A DNA stretch of 23,408 nt from a virus: positions 1 to 23,408 of IMG/VR virus record IMGVR_UViG_3300006928_000090. One strand, written 5' to 3'. The position numbers and the translations under genes are program-made. Shown here piece by piece: positions 11,762 through 23,408 of this stretch. The notes beneath the pieces were generated by a model. It worked only from the letters and a program-made list of their open reading frames with translations. It did no database searches and was not told the origin of the DNA. How positions within the stretch are numbered: position 1 is the stretch's first letter; each line of letters opens with the position of its first letter.

Positions 11762-13417
11762 ATGATTATAAATAGGTTAAAAGAAGGAATTGGTCTTAGA
11801 TGGCGTAATGATTTCGGTAGTCGCCAAGAGTGCATTGTTCCTTTTGGTGAGTACCAACCTTATTTTTATATTAAAGCAAATGAAGAACAACCAACTCAAC
11901 TTATCATTGGTGATAAATGGGGTAGGTTTCCGGTGGAACTTAGTTATCATACAGGAGACTATTATAATTTAAACGGTGAACAATTAACTAAGGTAACTTG
12001 GACACCAAATAATTCAAACCATATAAGGAAACTAAAGGATTGTTTCAACTATACATATGAAGCAGATGTTGCTTTTCACTATAGATTTTGTGTAGACGAA
12101 TTAGAACTATTGCCGGAATATAACTTGAACAAATGGTATTGGGATATGGAATGGATACAAGGTGGTGATTATGATGGGGCAATCACTTGTATTTCATTTT
12201 ATGATTCATATAAAAAAGAATGTGAAGTGTTGTGGTGGAGTCCTACTAAGATTGAAGTTGAAGGACATAACAAACACTTTAATTCTGAAAAGGCAATGTT
12301 ACATTATTTTCTTAATGTTATAGAAGATGAAGACCCTGATATGTTAATCTCATGGTTTGGTTGGAAATTCGATTTACCTAAATTAATTGAAAGATTAGTA
12401 GTAAATGATATAGACCCAAGAGACCTGTCTCCTTTTCAACAAGTAACAGGTGTAAATTGGTCTTCTAAAACATCTAAAATTAATTTAAATAATAATGTTG
12501 TTAGTAACTATTCGCCAATTAGTCAACCTATTAAGGGAAGAATATGTGTTCCTTTAGATTTAGCATTTGAAAGACAATGGAATGATTCTCAAAGAGGTAC
12601 ATTACCATCAATGGCTTTAGACTATGTAGCAGAATTAACATTAGGTGAGAAGAAACTTGTTAGTGATAGATTTCCTGATAAGAATGAATTTTTTCAAAGG
12701 GGTTGGTTAGAAGATACTCAACGTTATTTAGATTATGCTAAAGTAGATACTGAATTATTAGTTAGAATAGATAATGAAATGTATATTACAGAATCTATTT
12801 TAGCCCTACAAAGACTACTAGTTGCTCCTTTTGATGCTTGTTTCTATGCAAGTAATATGGGTGGAATATATTTCATGCGTAATGCCTCTTGGAAAGCCCC
12901 TACGGGTAAGAAAGAAGAAAGAGTAAACTATGACGGTGCAATGGTATATGACCCCTTGAGTGAAGGCACAAACGGTCTTCATTTGGGAGTTGCTGCATTT
13001 GATTTTGCAGGTCTATATCCGTCTATGATGATAGCAAGAAATATTTCATGGGAAACTAAATCAGATGAGGAAACAGAATTTGGTGTAAATATTAAAACAC
13101 CAAAAGACTTTTCGGAAGTATCTGAAAAAGATATGAGATATTATAAAACTGATAAATTAGGATTATTACCAAAAGCCGTATTAGAATTAAAGGTTTTACG
13201 AAATAAATATAAAAAATTAATGAAAGAATCTAAAAATAAAGAAGACTACAATAAATGGAATAGTAATCAATTAGCAGTGAAAAGATTATCTGCTTCCTTT
13301 TATGGTATCACTGCTTATCAAGGGTTTGGTTGGGCCGATGTAGATTTAGCGGCTAGTATTACTGCTAGTGCTAGAGAAGCAATTAGGTCTGCTGCATTTA
13401 AGGTGAGGGAATTATAA
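11762..13417 (+). CDS. polB-N: DNA polymerase B, N-terminal piece (exonuclease, motifs A and B)
   Basis: A 551-residue N-terminal portion of a family B DNA polymerase. The 3'-5' proofreading domain is complete: Exo I WYWDME (Asp128, Glu130), Exo II SWFGWKFDLP (Asp204) and Exo III YAKVD (Tyr325, Asp329). Polymerase motif A is DFAGLYPSMM (414-423) and motif B is KRLSASFYGITAYQGFG (507-523). The protein then stops at AFKVREL, just before where motif C should begin. The stop overlaps the ATG of a zinc mini-gene (TAATG), and the motif C piece is found 1.2 kb downstream as a separate gene. There is no intein sequence at the break. Activity would require both chains to assemble, as in the split PolB of Methanothermobacter. 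Confidence 0.95.
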   Translation: MIINRLKEGIGLRWRNDFGSRQECIVPFGEYQPYFYIKANEEQPTQLIIGDKWGRFPVELSYHTGDYYNLNGEQLTKVTWTPNNSNHIRKLKDCFNYTYEADVAFHYRFCVDELELLPEYNLNKWYWDMEWIQGGDYDGAITCISFYDSYKKECEVLWWSPTKIEVEGHNKHFNSEKAMLHYFLNVIEDEDPDMLISWFGWKFDLPKLIERLVVNDIDPRDLSPFQQVTGVNWSSKTSKINLNNNVVSNYSPISQPIKGRICVPLDLAFERQWNDSQRGTLPSMALDYVAELTLGEKKLVSDRFPDKNEFFQRGWLEDTQRYLDYAKVDTELLVRIDNEMYITESILALQRLLVAPFDACFYASNMGGIYFMRNASWKAPTGKKEERVNYDGAMVYDPLSEGTNGLHLGVAAFDFAGLYPSMMIARNISWETKSDEETEFGVNIKTPKDFSEVSEKDMRYYKTDKLGLLPKAVLELKVLRNKYKKLMKESKNKEDYNKWNSNQLAVKRLSASFYGITAYQGFGWADVDLAASITASAREAIRSAAFKVREL

Positions 13418-13563
13418 TGGCTAGAACAGATAAAAGTAAACCAATAAGAAGAGAATGTACAGTTTGTCATAAAACATTTAGATTAGCAAAAAGAGATGTA
13501 AAAAGATGTGCCACTTGTGCTCGTAAAGCAAGGGAGGCTAGAGAAAATGGCAAATCTCTTTGA
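13417..13563 (+). CDS. 48-residue basic zinc-ribbon protein
   Basis: First of eight mini-genes between the polymerase halves; its ATG overlaps the PolB-N stop. It has two CxxC pairs, CTVC (14-17) and CATC (31-34), in a very basic protein (KPIRREC, AKRDVKRC, ARKAREARENG). This is a single zinc ribbon of a kind likely to contact nucleic acid. Its 3' end contains the start of the next gene, with a 17-base overlap. Confidence 0.62.
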   Translation: MARTDKSKPIRRECTVCHKTFRLAKRDVKRCATCARKAREARENGKSL

Positions 13564-13681
13564 GAATAATATATGTTTTTATATTCTTTTAATTGTATAT
13601 AGTTTATTAGTTTGGTCTATTAGTAGGAAATATTCCCATGAAGAAATATATCTTGTAGATAATAAGGAGGAAAAGAAATGA
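13547..13681 (+). CDS. 44-residue single-pass membrane protein
   Basis: A hydrophobic segment ICFYILLIVYSLLVWSI (9-25) is followed by a charged C-terminal tail ending DNKEEKK. The start at 13547 lies inside the zinc-ribbon gene behind AGGGAGG (13531-13537). The stop overlaps the next start (ATGA), and AAGGAGG at 13664-13670 inside the tail codons serves that gene. Function is unknown. Confidence 0.52.
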   Translation: MANLFENNICFYILLIVYSLLVWSISRKYSHEEIYLVDNKEEKK

Positions 13682-13932
13682 ATAGATTTAGATTAGTAAG
13701 TGTTAAACATGCAGAGTATGAAATTTATAAGGGTATGTTGGTTAATAAAAGAGTAGAACCTATTCAAAGAACAATGCAAGATATCTACAATAGAGTAGTA
13801 CCAAAGGGTGATAAAGTAGCCCTTAAAAGATGGAATACTGCAATACAGAATGTAAAGCAGCAAATGGAAAATAAAATGGAAAATAGAAAACAATATTTAC
13901 CAAAAAACCACGTAGATGGAGATGACACATAA
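13678..13932 (+). CDS. 84-residue basic helical protein
   Basis: The ATG is preceded by AAGGAGGAAAAG and overlaps the previous stop. The protein is basic and helical (RTMQDIYNRVVPKGDKVALK, NVKQQMENKMENRKQYL), with no cysteines and no membrane segment. It looks like a small nucleic-acid or protein-binding helix bundle. It is not a missing part of the polymerase: no motif C or palm strand is present. Confidence 0.58.
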   Translation: MNRFRLVSVKHAEYEIYKGMLVNKRVEPIQRTMQDIYNRVVPKGDKVALKRWNTAIQNVKQQMENKMENRKQYLPKNHVDGDDT

Positions 13933-14075
13933 TGGAAATACAATGTATCGTATGTGGCAATACCTTTAATTTACGTGGGGGTGTTTATGGTCAATCTACG
14001 AAACGTTGTGGTAAATGTTATTTAGAATGGAAAAAAGAAATAAGGAGGAAAAAAAATGATAAGAAAATGTACTAG
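13932..14075 (+). CDS. 47-residue zinc-ribbon protein
   Basis: TAATG overlap with the previous gene. The motifs CIVCG (5-9) and CGKC (26-29) form a single zinc ribbon, followed by a Lys/Arg-rich helix (EWKKEIRRKK). The AAGGAGGAA inside that helix is the ribosome-binding site for the next gene, so the tail is partly dictated by translation signals. It is the second zinc ribbon in the intra-polymerase cassette. Confidence 0.6.
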   Translation: MEIQCIVCGNTFNLRGGVYGQSTKRCGKCYLEWKKEIRRKKNDKKMY

Positions 14076-14148
14076 AAAGGATTGTAATAAGGCTATGTTT
14101 ATGCATGGTGAATGTTATCATCATTATTTTATAGCGTGGGGTAAGTAA
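14056..14148 (+). CDS. 30-residue zinc-finger mini-protein
   Basis: The sequence CTRKDCNKAMFMHGECYHHYF (residues 5-25, quoted in pieces: CTRKDC, HGEC, HHY) follows the pattern CxxxxC...xGxCxxHY found in small zinc modules of phage HNH and regulatory proteins. Here it stands alone in 30 residues. The start has AAGGAGG 7 bases upstream and overlaps the previous gene by 20 bases. Confidence 0.52.
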   Translation: MIRKCTRKDCNKAMFMHGECYHHYFIAWGK

Positions 14149-14149
14149 C

Positions 14150-14377
14150 ATGTTAATGTATAGTTTATCATTATTAGGTGGATTTGCATTAGCAAAATGG
14201 GCAGTACCTAGAGTACCTTCTTTGAAAACAGAGAAATATCATTTACATCATTGGATGTGGTCATCAGCAATACTCATAGGTTTTATGTTTATTACTGTTA
14301 CAGATATTACTATTGGTTTATTTACAGGTATTGCTTTACAAGGTTTAACCTACAAAAATTGGGGGATTATACAATGA
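14150..14377 (+). CDS. 75-residue membrane protein with HLHHW motif
   Basis: Hydrophobic stretches cover MYSLSLLGGFALAKW at the N-terminus and SSAILIGFMFITVTDITIGL (38-57) to GIALQGL, giving two or three membrane segments. Between them lies a histidine cluster YHLHHWMW (30-37), which could bind a metal at the membrane surface. Such His clusters occur in small membrane proteins of several archaeal viruses and cells, but I cannot assign a family. It is in the intra-polymerase cassette. Confidence 0.58.
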   Translation: MLMYSLSLLGGFALAKWAVPRVPSLKTEKYHLHHWMWSSAILIGFMFITVTDITIGLFTGIALQGLTYKNWGIIQ

Positions 14378-14517
14378 AATGTAATATATGTAACGTAGAA
14401 CAAATAAAAACAATTCGCTTACAAACAATATTTCCTTACGGAACAGTTTGTGGCGATTGTATTCAAATAGGCGTTAATATGTTAGCAAAACATAGGGGAA
14501 TAGAAAATGACAGTTGA
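14374..14517 (+). CDS. 47-residue zinc-ribbon protein
   Basis: The start at ATG 14374 overlaps the previous stop. Upstream in-frame ATG codons from 14251 would give a Tyr/Phe-rich extension lying wholly inside the membrane gene, so I reject them. CNIC (3-6) and CGDC (26-29) form one zinc ribbon; the remainder is a short helix. It is the third zinc ribbon between the polymerase halves. Confidence 0.58.
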   Translation: MKCNICNVEQIKTIRLQTIFPYGTVCGDCIQIGVNMLAKHRGIENDS

Positions 14518-14647
14518 ACCTACAGACTTATTATTATACACTTCTTGTTGTGCAGGTTTATGTTTTTTAATATGTGTAGGATATATTATATTAGAAAATT
14601 TAAGAGTAACATATAAAATTATTCAAGATGGAGTTGAATGGCCTTGA
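14507..14647 (+). CDS. 46-residue Cys-rich membrane mini-protein
   Basis: A single hydrophobic segment (LLLYTSCCAGLCFLICVGYI) contains four cysteines within the membrane, an uncommon feature that could support palmitoylation or disulfides. The tail is amphipathic (LRVTYKIIQDGVEW). The last ten bases overlap the start of the polymerase C-terminal gene, and GGAG at 14630-14633 in the tail is its ribosome-binding site. Confidence 0.52.
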   Translation: MTVEPTDLLLYTSCCAGLCFLICVGYIILENLRVTYKIIQDGVEWP

Positions 14648-15540
14648 AAGTAGTTTACGGACATACAGATTCTATCTATGTAAAGATAGATAGTATAGAA
14701 GAATCAAAAAAAACCTTAAGCATTCTAAATGAACACGTTAGAGAAAGTTTTCCTAATGTTCTTGGATTAGATGAACACCCTGTTGTTTTAGAATTTGAAA
14801 AATACTTTCATAGTCTAGGAGTAGGAGTTACTAAGAATAGAAATGCCGGATTAATAACTTGGAAAGATGGTAAAGACCTAGAAGAAATGGAATTTACTAT
14901 GACAGGATTTACTGCAAAGAGAGTTTCAGAAACTAAGTTAGCAAAAGATGTTCAAATTAATACATTGAAAATGTGGGCTGAAGGAAAAACAGAAGAAGAA
15001 ATTAGTGGCTATCTTAATGACAGATATTATCAAGTACTAAACGGAGAAATACCTTTATCTGAAATTACTAAGAGAAGTAGATATAGAGATGTTAGATTTC
15101 AAGTTGAATGTAAAACATGTAAGAAAACTTCTAATCTTAATACACTTGTAATGTCTACTTGTTGTAGTTTACCTAAATTACAAACTATAGAAGGTAAAAA
15201 TGTAACAGTAGGAGCAGGAATTGCAGGAGTATTATTTTATAATAACATACCAACTAATGTTCCAATTACAGATTCTTATTTATACTGTAAAATTAAAGAA
15301 AATAGTAATAATAAGTTTACACACCCTGTAACTCAACAGACTATCATAACAACATGGTATTCTGCAAACAACGAAAAAGAAATAGAACTATTTTTGAAAT
15401 CTTCACGTAGTTTTATTGATTGGTTTTATTATGCCAATACTGTAGTGAAGAAAGCAGAGCCTATTTATTTAGCAATGGGTTGGAAAACTGCTAATATATC
15501 CAAAGATAAAAAACAAAAGAATTTAGATGAGTGGTTTTAA
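14638..15540 (+). CDS. polB-C: DNA polymerase B, C-terminal piece (motif C, thumb, PIP box)
   Basis: A 300-residue C-terminal part of the family B polymerase, beginning a few residues before motif C: MALKVVYGHTDSIYVKI. Motif C is normally YxDTDS; the first Asp is His here (His9) while the second (Asp11) is kept. A palm/thumb region follows with TKRSRYRD (144-151). A Cys quartet CKTC (158-161) and CC (175-176) in the thumb could bind zinc and is not typical of archaeal PolB. The protein ends KQKNLDEWF, a strong PCNA-interacting box (Gln293-Phe300). Alignment with the N-terminal piece (ending AFKVREL) leaves almost no missing residues, so the two chains together rebuild a full enzyme of about 850 residues. 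The stop overlaps the next ATG. Confidence 0.93.
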   Translation: MALKVVYGHTDSIYVKIDSIEESKKTLSILNEHVRESFPNVLGLDEHPVVLEFEKYFHSLGVGVTKNRNAGLITWKDGKDLEEMEFTMTGFTAKRVSETKLAKDVQINTLKMWAEGKTEEEISGYLNDRYYQVLNGEIPLSEITKRSRYRDVRFQVECKTCKKTSNLNTLVMSTCCSLPKLQTIEGKNVTVGAGIAGVLFYNNIPTNVPITDSYLYCKIKENSNNKFTHPVTQQTIITTWYSANNEKEIELFLKSSRSFIDWFYYANTVVKKAEPIYLAMGWKTANISKDKKQKNLDEWF

Positions 15541-21806: not shown

Positions 21807-23408
21807 TCATGATTCATCTGCAAATGGTACTGCCATTAAAGTACCTACTACATATGTAAGAGGACTACTAGCCTTAATACAAGTTACTACTAGCGAACTA
21901 CCTGTATGATGAATCTTAGCCTCACTATTACCACCTGCATTAGTATGACCATTAATCATTATATTTGTTCCTGCTAAAACTGTAAGATAAGTTCCGGCGG
22001 CTGAACTAGTAAGAAGTTCATATGTATCTCCAACAGTTGCCGATGTAGGAAGTGTAACTGTACTTGTTCCTAAACAATTTATCATTGCTCCTGCATGAGT
22101 AGCATAAACTAATTGTAAGTTAGTATTATCCGCTAAATCAATTACTTTTCTTCTGAAAATTCTAGCACCACCTGTTCCTGATTTTGAAATTAGTGTTTCT
22201 TGTGTTCCTCCATCTAATGTTAATAATTCAACTGAACCATTAATACGGAATTTCATATCACCGCCTGATTTTCTATTTACAATATAAGTATCATTTTCAG
22301 ATTGAGCAAAGTCAGTTGAAGCAGATGCAGATGAATCTGTAACTCTTAAATTTGATTGAGTACCATGTGAAATTTCTAATGCTGCATGGCTACTTGTACC
22401 CGAATAACTTGTTGCATTAACTAGTAAATGACCAGCACTATCAAATCTTGCTTTTTCTGTTGCATCTAATCTAAATGATATACCATCATAAGCAGATATA
22501 GCAAGCCCATCGGGATTAGCACCGCTATGGTCTTGTACTGTAATTGATGGTTGATTAGTATTTAAATGTCCTTCACGGAAATATAAACCTGCACCTGCTC
22601 CTACTTCGTAAGCATCAATTAACACACTACCCTCAACATGTAAAGTGGTATCGGGAGCATCAGTACCTATCCCAACTTTACCATCAGACAAAATACGCAT
22701 TCTTTCAGTTGGTACTGTGGTGGCATCTCCACCTGTTGCTCTTGTACCAAAAACTAAATCTCCTGTACTATTACTACCTGTTCTTACATGACCAACATAA
22801 GCCCCCGCATAACTACTACTACTACCACTTTCTGAAAATACTATTTGTGGGCCTTGTCCATCAGTAGCACTATCGCCTGAAAGCATAATATGACCATTAA
22901 CAGTATTAAAAGTTGAAGCGGCTCTAATTTCTAACTTAGCAGTAGGACTTGAAGTACCTATTCCAACGCTTTGTTCACTACCATCGAATCTAACGTATTC
23001 AGTAGAACCTGTTTTAACTACTAAATCGTTATCCGGTTCTAATTCAATATGTCCATCTGAACCTATATGCAAATCTTCTGATGAATCTGTATCAGCGTAG
23101 ATATATGAGTCAGTAGAATCAAAGTAAATTTTCTTATTTTCTGCTACATATATATCTCCTGTAAGTCCAATATCTCCCGCTACATCTAAAGTTTTAGCAG
23201 GACTTGTAGTGCCTATTCCAACTTTACCATCATTTCTAACAATTAATAAAGCGTTTGTATCATCTGATGTTGATTGGGTATGGGAAGAAGTAGCCTTTCT
23301 ACCTACCATCCAAGAATCAGATAGAGAATAAGGTGTTCCCATATACCACTCATGGTCTGATTGGGCATCGTGCATGAATACACCAAGACCACGATAAGAA
23401 GCATCGTC
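21807..23408 (-). CDS. tail-fibre-like structural protein (partial, 5' end beyond window)
   Basis: This - strand gene is open to the window edge: 11 further codons (reading DDASYRGLGVF) precede the first Met at 23375, so the N-terminus is missing. The visible 533 residues are low in Cys and rich in Gly, Ser, Thr and Asp. They carry three GIGT units, KVGIGTTSPAKTLDV, SVGIGTSSPTAKLEI and KVGIGTDAPDTTLHV (about 52, 137 and 234 from that Met), each followed by strand repeats. This is the repeat style of phage tail fibres and marine virion adhesins. The C-terminus (VTLPTSATVGDTYELLTSSA onward) looks like a compact beta domain, without a peptidase-S74 chaperone motif. It is a probable receptor-binding virion component and marks the start of a structural block on the other strand. 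Confidence 0.78.
   Translation of the reverse strand, partial: DDASYRGLGVFMHDAQSDHEWYMGTPYSLSDSWMVGRKATSSHTQSTSDDTNALLIVRNDGKVGIGTTSPAKTLDVAGDIGLTGDIYVAENKKIYFDSTDSYIYADTDSSEDLHIGSDGHIELEPDNDLVVKTGSTEYVRFDGSEQSVGIGTSSPTAKLEIRAASTFNTVNGHIMLSGDSATDGQGPQIVFSESGSSSSYAGAYVGHVRTGSNSTGDLVFGTRATGGDATTVPTERMRILSDGKVGIGTDAPDTTLHVEGSVLIDAYEVGAGAGLYFREGHLNTNQPSITVQDHSGANPDGLAISAYDGISFRLDATEKARFDSAGHLLVNATSYSGTSSHAALEISHGTQSNLRVTDSSASASTDFAQSENDTYIVNRKSGGDMKFRINGSVELLTLDGGTQETLISKSGTGGARIFRRKVIDLADNTNLQLVYATHAGAMINCLGTSTVTLPTSATVGDTYELLTSSAAGTYLTVLAGTNIMINGHTNAGGNSEAKIHHTGSSLVVTCIKASSPLTYVVGTLMAVPFADES

Follow-up and report, generated by a model that had tools for sequence, protein, structure and literature searches.

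A family B DNA polymerase encoded by two genes, with a site of small-gene turnover at the break, in a putative magrovirus

The viral contig analysed here (IMG/VR record IMGVR_UViG_3300006928_000090, positions 1–23,408; "the window" hereafter means this whole stretch of 23,408 nucleotides) raises the question of whether a family B DNA polymerase (PolB) that is cut in two beside its active site can still form one enzyme, and of how the break and the small genes lying in it came about. In the window, PolB is encoded by two plus-strand genes, PolB-N (11762–13417) and PolB-C (14638–15540), which cover about the first two thirds and the last third of the polymerase, respectively, and keep their order, side by side on the same strand of a replication gene cluster. 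A sequence-only reading of this DNA had reported the same coordinates and motif content, which are supported by the open reading frames (ORFs) and by Pfam and PHROG matches. We consider it very probable that the locus encodes a two-subunit replicative PolB of a magrovirus-type virus, rejoined without splicing, with two-chain assembly and polymerase activity being predicted from sequence and from separate models of each half. The features of the polymerase locus are as follows.

11762..13417, plus strand: PolB-N, 551 amino acids (aa), ending in AFKVREL before the stop codon; exonuclease domain, palm motif A, fingers and motif B (Pfam/PHROG, AlphaFold)
14625..14640, plus strand: Shine-Dalgarno (SD)-like GGAG and start codon of PolB-C (SD-like motif counts across loci)
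14638..15540, plus strand: PolB-C, 300 aa, beginning with MALKVVYGHTDS; motif C, remainder of the palm and thumb with a Cys pair (Pfam/PHROG, AlphaFold)

Profile matches of the two products follow each other along the same families: Pfam DNA_pol_B is matched at positions 36–195 in PolB-N and 221–361 in PolB-C, and PHROG 262 (a phage DNA polymerase family) at positions 21–560 and 574–731, respectively. Alignment of the junction with the fused PolBs of the haloviruses HCTV-5, VOLN27B and HGTV-1 revealed that no residue was lost. The break lies in the loop between the helix after motif B and the beta strand leading into motif C, i.e., between residues 531 and 532 of RTX, a KOD-derived PolB, with PolB-N ending in REL and PolB-C starting with M-(AL)-KVVYG.

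AlphaFold models of the halves, built from alignments of 60 (PolB-N) and 55 (PolB-C) sequences, reached a mean predicted local distance difference test score (pLDDT) of 84.9 and 85.6, respectively. Residues 1–551 of the PolB-N model align to RB69 gp43 6–604 (Z of about 29–33 vs. RB69/KOD-type polymerases), and the PolB-C model aligns to KOD-type PolB from residue 532 on (Z of about 14–15), so that the halves map to adjoining stretches of the references (RTX 2–531 and 532–756; RB69 6–604 and about 605–613 onward). Model confidence drops in two places, the very start of PolB-C and residues 395–417 of PolB-N, a stretch that includes the motif A strand. As these are the places where the partner would sit, we read them as would-be packing surfaces, which suggests that each half depends on the other. 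The PolB-N proteins of some relatives (L090 and L091) additionally carry a four-Cys zinc-ribbon insertion after the APTG motif, which is absent from the window PolB-N.

Relatives were retrieved from one viral collection with either PolB half, and then by a motif C pattern search independent of the upstream sequence and a PolB-C profile search; the counts given here hold among the matches listed, and "all" refers to all copies examined. One unrelated match (L103) was discarded. In every retrieved locus that covers the junction, the split has the same position, over a range of PolB-N identities from 100% down to ~50%. The 280 motif C matches in public viral contigs, representing 181 distinct 240-bp DNA sequences, are all split and all carry YGHTDS as motif C; none of the 280 is fused or has an upstream open frame of more than 60 codons. 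A long open frame of 948–987 aa in four relatives was rejected as a fused copy, since the three that were translated contain many stops between the halves. In 18 long relatives (72–98 kb), a search for an intact PolB gave matches at the two halves only. The split described in the sequence-only reading was borne out by these searches, and a frameshift or assembly error, named there as a possible refutation, does not account for it. In genome contigs of GTDB, the motif search had a single match (L224; NZMJ01000151.1), which shows the same split and belongs to a metagenome-assembled genome of Maricaulis, where it is most likely a misbinned virus contig.

Moreover, the loci carry signals for separate translation. 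Among 151 distinct loci, PolB-C has its own start codon in 150 (ATG in 146), and an SD-like motif precedes this start in 118 (78%), compared to 17% of the ATGs inside PolB-N. In four loci (L053, L074, L115 and L135), the halves overlap by ATGA and no gene lies between them. Own starts, SD-like motifs and overlapping ORF ends fit one polycistronic message from which both halves are translated separately, with no need for splicing. Since no residues are missing and PolB-C has its own start and SD-like motif, a two-chain enzyme without splicing is the most likely outcome. It had also been proposed that the chains must pair without splicing because the flanks show no intein residues, and indeed no extra intein sequence is present at REL/KVVYG.

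The DEDD exonuclease motifs I–III are kept, with D128, E130, D204, Y325 and D329 invariant in 60 relatives. In the alignments of 55–60 relatives, motif A D414 and motif B K507 are invariant too, as is D11 of PolB-C, which is the second Asp of motif C. The suggestion that the two catalytic Asp residues are located on different proteins thus stands for D414 and D11, but the first Asp of motif C is replaced by His in all 280 matches (YGHTDS). Two further palm motifs deviate: motif B reads KRL(M/S)(A/S)SFYG instead of the usual KxxxNSxYG (Asn to Ala or Ser), and the KKRY-type motif reads KNRN (Tyr to Asn). PolB-C contains a conserved Cys pair (158 and 161) in the thumb and ends in a PIP-box-like QxxLxxW[FW] in 50 of 55 relatives (QKNLDEWF in the window). 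When YGDTDS with a Met codon at the matching place was searched, two viral sequences were found, both of them fused. In the data examined, the split and YGHTDS always co-occur.

An ancestral single PolB reading frame is broken in the loop before the motif C strand without loss of residues and, in the mechanism we propose, the two chains would be translated separately from one message. By folding together without splicing, they could rebuild the palm, with D414 of PolB-N and D11 of PolB-C forming the metal site. The proofreading exonuclease would remain on PolB-N, with the thumb and the C-terminal, PIP-box-like sliding-clamp peptide residing on PolB-C. The split is probably old and effectively irreversible, the latter being judged from the fact that no fused copies were seen. 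In a halovirus-rooted tree, the zero-gap loci are scattered, three of them nested among gapped loci and the fourth (L135) branching off first. Whether a gap closes completely or fills up, the halves were not re-fused in any copy seen.

Several points weigh against this interpretation. Three usually conserved palm positions are changed, namely the first Asp of motif C, the Asn of motif B and the Tyr of KKRY, which leaves open a weak or specialised enzyme; these residues are usual but not universal in the PolB family, and haloviral PolB relatives keep them at most of the altered positions. The window is a 23-kb fragment, and a further PolB of the same genome could lie outside of it. Finally, long-branch rooting makes it uncertain whether a zero gap or inserted genes came first and, because the outgroup branch is long (2.1) with a support of 0.84, we make no claim on the ancestral gap state.

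What, then, lies between the halves? In the window, these 1.2 kb are tiled by eight small ORFs, all on the plus strand.

13417..13563, plus strand: gap mini-gene 1, zinc-ribbon-like, 48 aa; 1 nt in common with the PolB-N stop (TAATG)
13547..13681, plus strand: gap mini-gene 2, single membrane segment, 44 aa; also in L089
13678..13932, plus strand: gap mini-gene 3, basic, 84 aa; cluster of 13 loci including the window; third-position excess
13932..14075, plus strand: gap mini-gene 4, zinc-ribbon-like, 47 aa; 21 related ORFs in 18 loci
14056..14148, plus strand: gap mini-gene 5, Cys/His-rich, 30 aa; also in L005, L008 and L011
14150..14377, plus strand: gap mini-gene 6, membrane protein, 75 aa; cluster of 8 loci including the window
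14374..14517, plus strand: gap mini-gene 7, zinc-ribbon-like, 47 aa; also in L010
14507..14647, plus strand: gap mini-gene 8, membrane protein, 46 aa; overlaps the PolB-C start by 10 nt; also in L005, L008 and L011

Paired Cys/His motifs occur in four of these ORFs and a strongly hydrophobic segment in three, the remaining ORF being basic, and the earlier sorting into four zinc, three membrane and one basic protein was obtained again from the ORF sequences. The outermost ones were likewise said to overlap the polymerase ends, and do so by 1 nt at the PolB-N stop and 10 nt at the PolB-C start. The cluster of mini-gene 1 comprises seven related gap ORFs, six of which are the first gene of their gap. 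Compared to their nearest relatives, the window gap ORFs show 48, 31 and 83 differences at codon positions 1, 2 and 3, respectively, and across the 151 loci gap ORFs cover 93% of the plus strand and 34% of the minus strand; judging from these codon-position differences and the strand-biased coverage, they look like genuine genes.

Across the same loci, the gap, measured to motif C, spans 5–2097 bp (median 587) and holds 0–9 genes. Strict clustering of 550 gap genes yielded 112 clusters, of which 50 are singletons. One zinc family of 115 gap genes, obtained by loose clustering, proved to be an artefact of Cys-rich composition and broke up under stricter settings. A spacing of more than 90 bp was found between PolB-N and PolB-C in 94% of the loci, compared to 0–29% for other core gene pairs, and in 101 of 128 loci the PolB gap exceeds every other core gap. 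A few other intervals of the cluster are loosely spaced as well, namely the one preceding RFC and the one from the Cas4-like gene to the primase, which is occupied by an additional gene. In L005, the gap contains an extra 114-aa Viral_Rep (PF02407, E = 4e-17) HUH ORF about 620 bp past the PolB-N stop, which is absent from the close relatives L008 and L011 and marks a recent change. The stretch between the halves is thus a tolerated insertion site which gains and loses small genes in a mostly tight cluster. As some viruses have no gene between the halves, it appears that no individual gap gene belongs to the polymerase, and none can be a general polymerase subunit unless it is encoded elsewhere.

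Further gap contents were noted in individual relatives. The HUH domain in L005 is of the type used by small single-stranded DNA viruses, and a gap ORF of L128 (offset 342) encodes a PemK/MazF-type toxin (PF02452, E = 4e-16). The first gap gene encodes an HNH nuclease (275 aa) in L181 and a MUG113/T5orf172 (GIY-YIG-type) protein (192 aa) in L102, and a DUF2061 gene also occurs among the gap contents of relatives.

A more far-reaching interpretation would be that the lineage has fixed a trans-assembled polymerase with its active site distributed across two proteins and coordinated changes in the palm (H-T-D in motif C, Asn to Ala or Ser in motif B, and KNRN), and that the gap serves as a dedicated gene-exchange site. 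The split and the His motif, always seen together in the data examined, may then have evolved jointly, tying polymerase activity to subunit assembly. In this full combination we regard it as rather unlikely and put it forward tentatively.

With regard to origin, a free-standing homing endonuclease or a plain frameshift or stop may have split the gene, as in the T4-like gp43A/gp43B type, the break later becoming an insertion locus. This account, which is compatible with a two-subunit enzyme, has in our view a little less than an even chance. In line with it, phage 44RR has two adjacent polymerase genes, and the split 43A/43B proteins of Aeromonas phage 25 copurify and have polymerase activity without splicing (PMC2988022); in both phages, as in the window, two adjacent genes encode one family B polymerase. 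HNH and GIY-YIG-type genes are present in some gaps, and one of the four loci overlapping by ATGA (L135) is first-branching in the halovirus-rooted tree. However, few of the gap genes encode nucleases, and the tree is weakly rooted. The 44RR break, moreover, falls within the fingers, after motif A and before motif B, with gene 43 ending before KxxxNS and 43B holding motifs B and C. The break of the window lineage instead follows motif B and precedes motif C, is a fixed feature of the clade and takes up to 2 kb of other genes. Two complete genes with own start signals jointly cover one PolB here, as in the gp43A/B type, and by analogy the window split would work in the same way while having arisen independently.

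Alternatively, the split could go back to an intein, or an intein-encoded endonuclease, that was lost from the pol-c site and whose place was later taken by cargo genes; an intein scar of this kind had been suggested by the sequence-only reading. Motif C is a known intein site, and in Nanoarchaeum equitans the PolB halves NEQ068 and NEQ528, likewise two genes with a break near motif C, are joined by a split intein at position III (pol-c) (PMC549080), which the window lacks. PolB3 of Methanobacteriales consists of two chains (Kelman 1999, cited in PMC4104785), and its splits were suggested to arise from erratic intein excision (PMC4104785); it is likewise an archaeal two-chain PolB without splicing, though a cellular PolB3, whereas the window PolB is a halovirus/T4-like relative. 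The HNH nuclease and T5orf172/MUG113 genes in a few gaps could also be relics of this kind. Nevertheless, we consider this origin very improbable. The pol-c insertion point YGD|TDS (PMC549080) lies about eight residues downstream of the break, no intein was seen at the site in relatives or in the three halovirus outgroups, whose fused PolBs run straight through, and Pfam detected no intein (Hint) domain in the eight window gap proteins and ten gap representatives of relatives. In addition, the abutting halves of L053, L074, L115 and L135 indicate that the split needs no insert. Of the earlier proposal, the filling with genes is retained in modified form, as genes that come and go, and the intein origin is not supported.

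Even less probable is an RNA-level intron or a recoding bypass that would yield one full-length polymerase. The halves are in the same frame in several relatives (e.g., L039, L029 and L050), but many stop codons separate them, PolB-C has its own ATG and SD-like motif at the frequencies given above (146 of 151 loci and 78%), and the gap is full of coding-strand ORFs and freely variable in length. A chimeric assembly, a known hazard of metagenome contigs, or a decaying pseudogene is next to excluded, since the same junction recurs in 181 distinct sequences from many samples and both halves are strongly conserved.

In the context of known viruses, the existence of the split was already on record, because the 2023 profile of the Aoguangviridae (order Magrovirales) by the International Committee on Taxonomy of Viruses lists PolB-NTD and PolB-CTD genes in its genome-map legend (PMC10768690). 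By gene set and order, this family probably represents the same virus group as the window; the profile text comments neither on the break and where it lies nor on its fixation or the genes in between. In archaeal PolB2/G2 polymerases, motif C holds one Asp together with a conserved His, and a conserved exonuclease site is lacking (PMC7544198). Their Asp/His pattern resembles that of the window polymerase, which differs by its intact exonuclease motifs and its split gene. Provisionally, since the specialist magrovirus literature may mention the split, what appears to be new is where exactly the chain is broken, that this position is fixed in the lineage, that genes are exchanged at the break, and that the split goes together with YGHTDS and the unusual palm motifs.

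Based on its gene content, the window virus is probably a magrovirus-type archaeal tailed virus and is tentatively assigned to Magrovirales. Magroviruses are abundant ocean viruses thought to infect archaea, and following the literature on the group we take their hosts to be Poseidoniales. Besides the split PolB, the cluster of the window comprises genes for a ligase, an RFC-like AAA+ protein, a PDDEXK and an ERCC4 protein, and the putative PCNA, primase and MCM had no library match. In addition, a ThiF/E1-like protein (PF00899, E = 2e-18) is encoded near an ORF with a JAMM-like HTHP...SGTD motif (154–717 and 1782–2315); AMSH matches of the latter are weak, and both could form a ubiquitin-like conjugation/deconjugation pair. 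A tail-fibre-like gene on the minus strand (21807–23375; PHROG 18345, E = 4e-18) fits the two-cluster layout of magroviruses.

Split polymerases are usually presented as single-phage oddities or intein relics. Here, the split is stable across a large and abundant virus lineage, is placed in one defined loop and comes with many natural pairs of halves. This provides a natural data set for asking how a replicative polymerase cut beside its active site can still work, why it was not re-fused and why genes collect at the break. In addition, the break site and the diversity of half pairs would suit the design of split or switchable polymerases.

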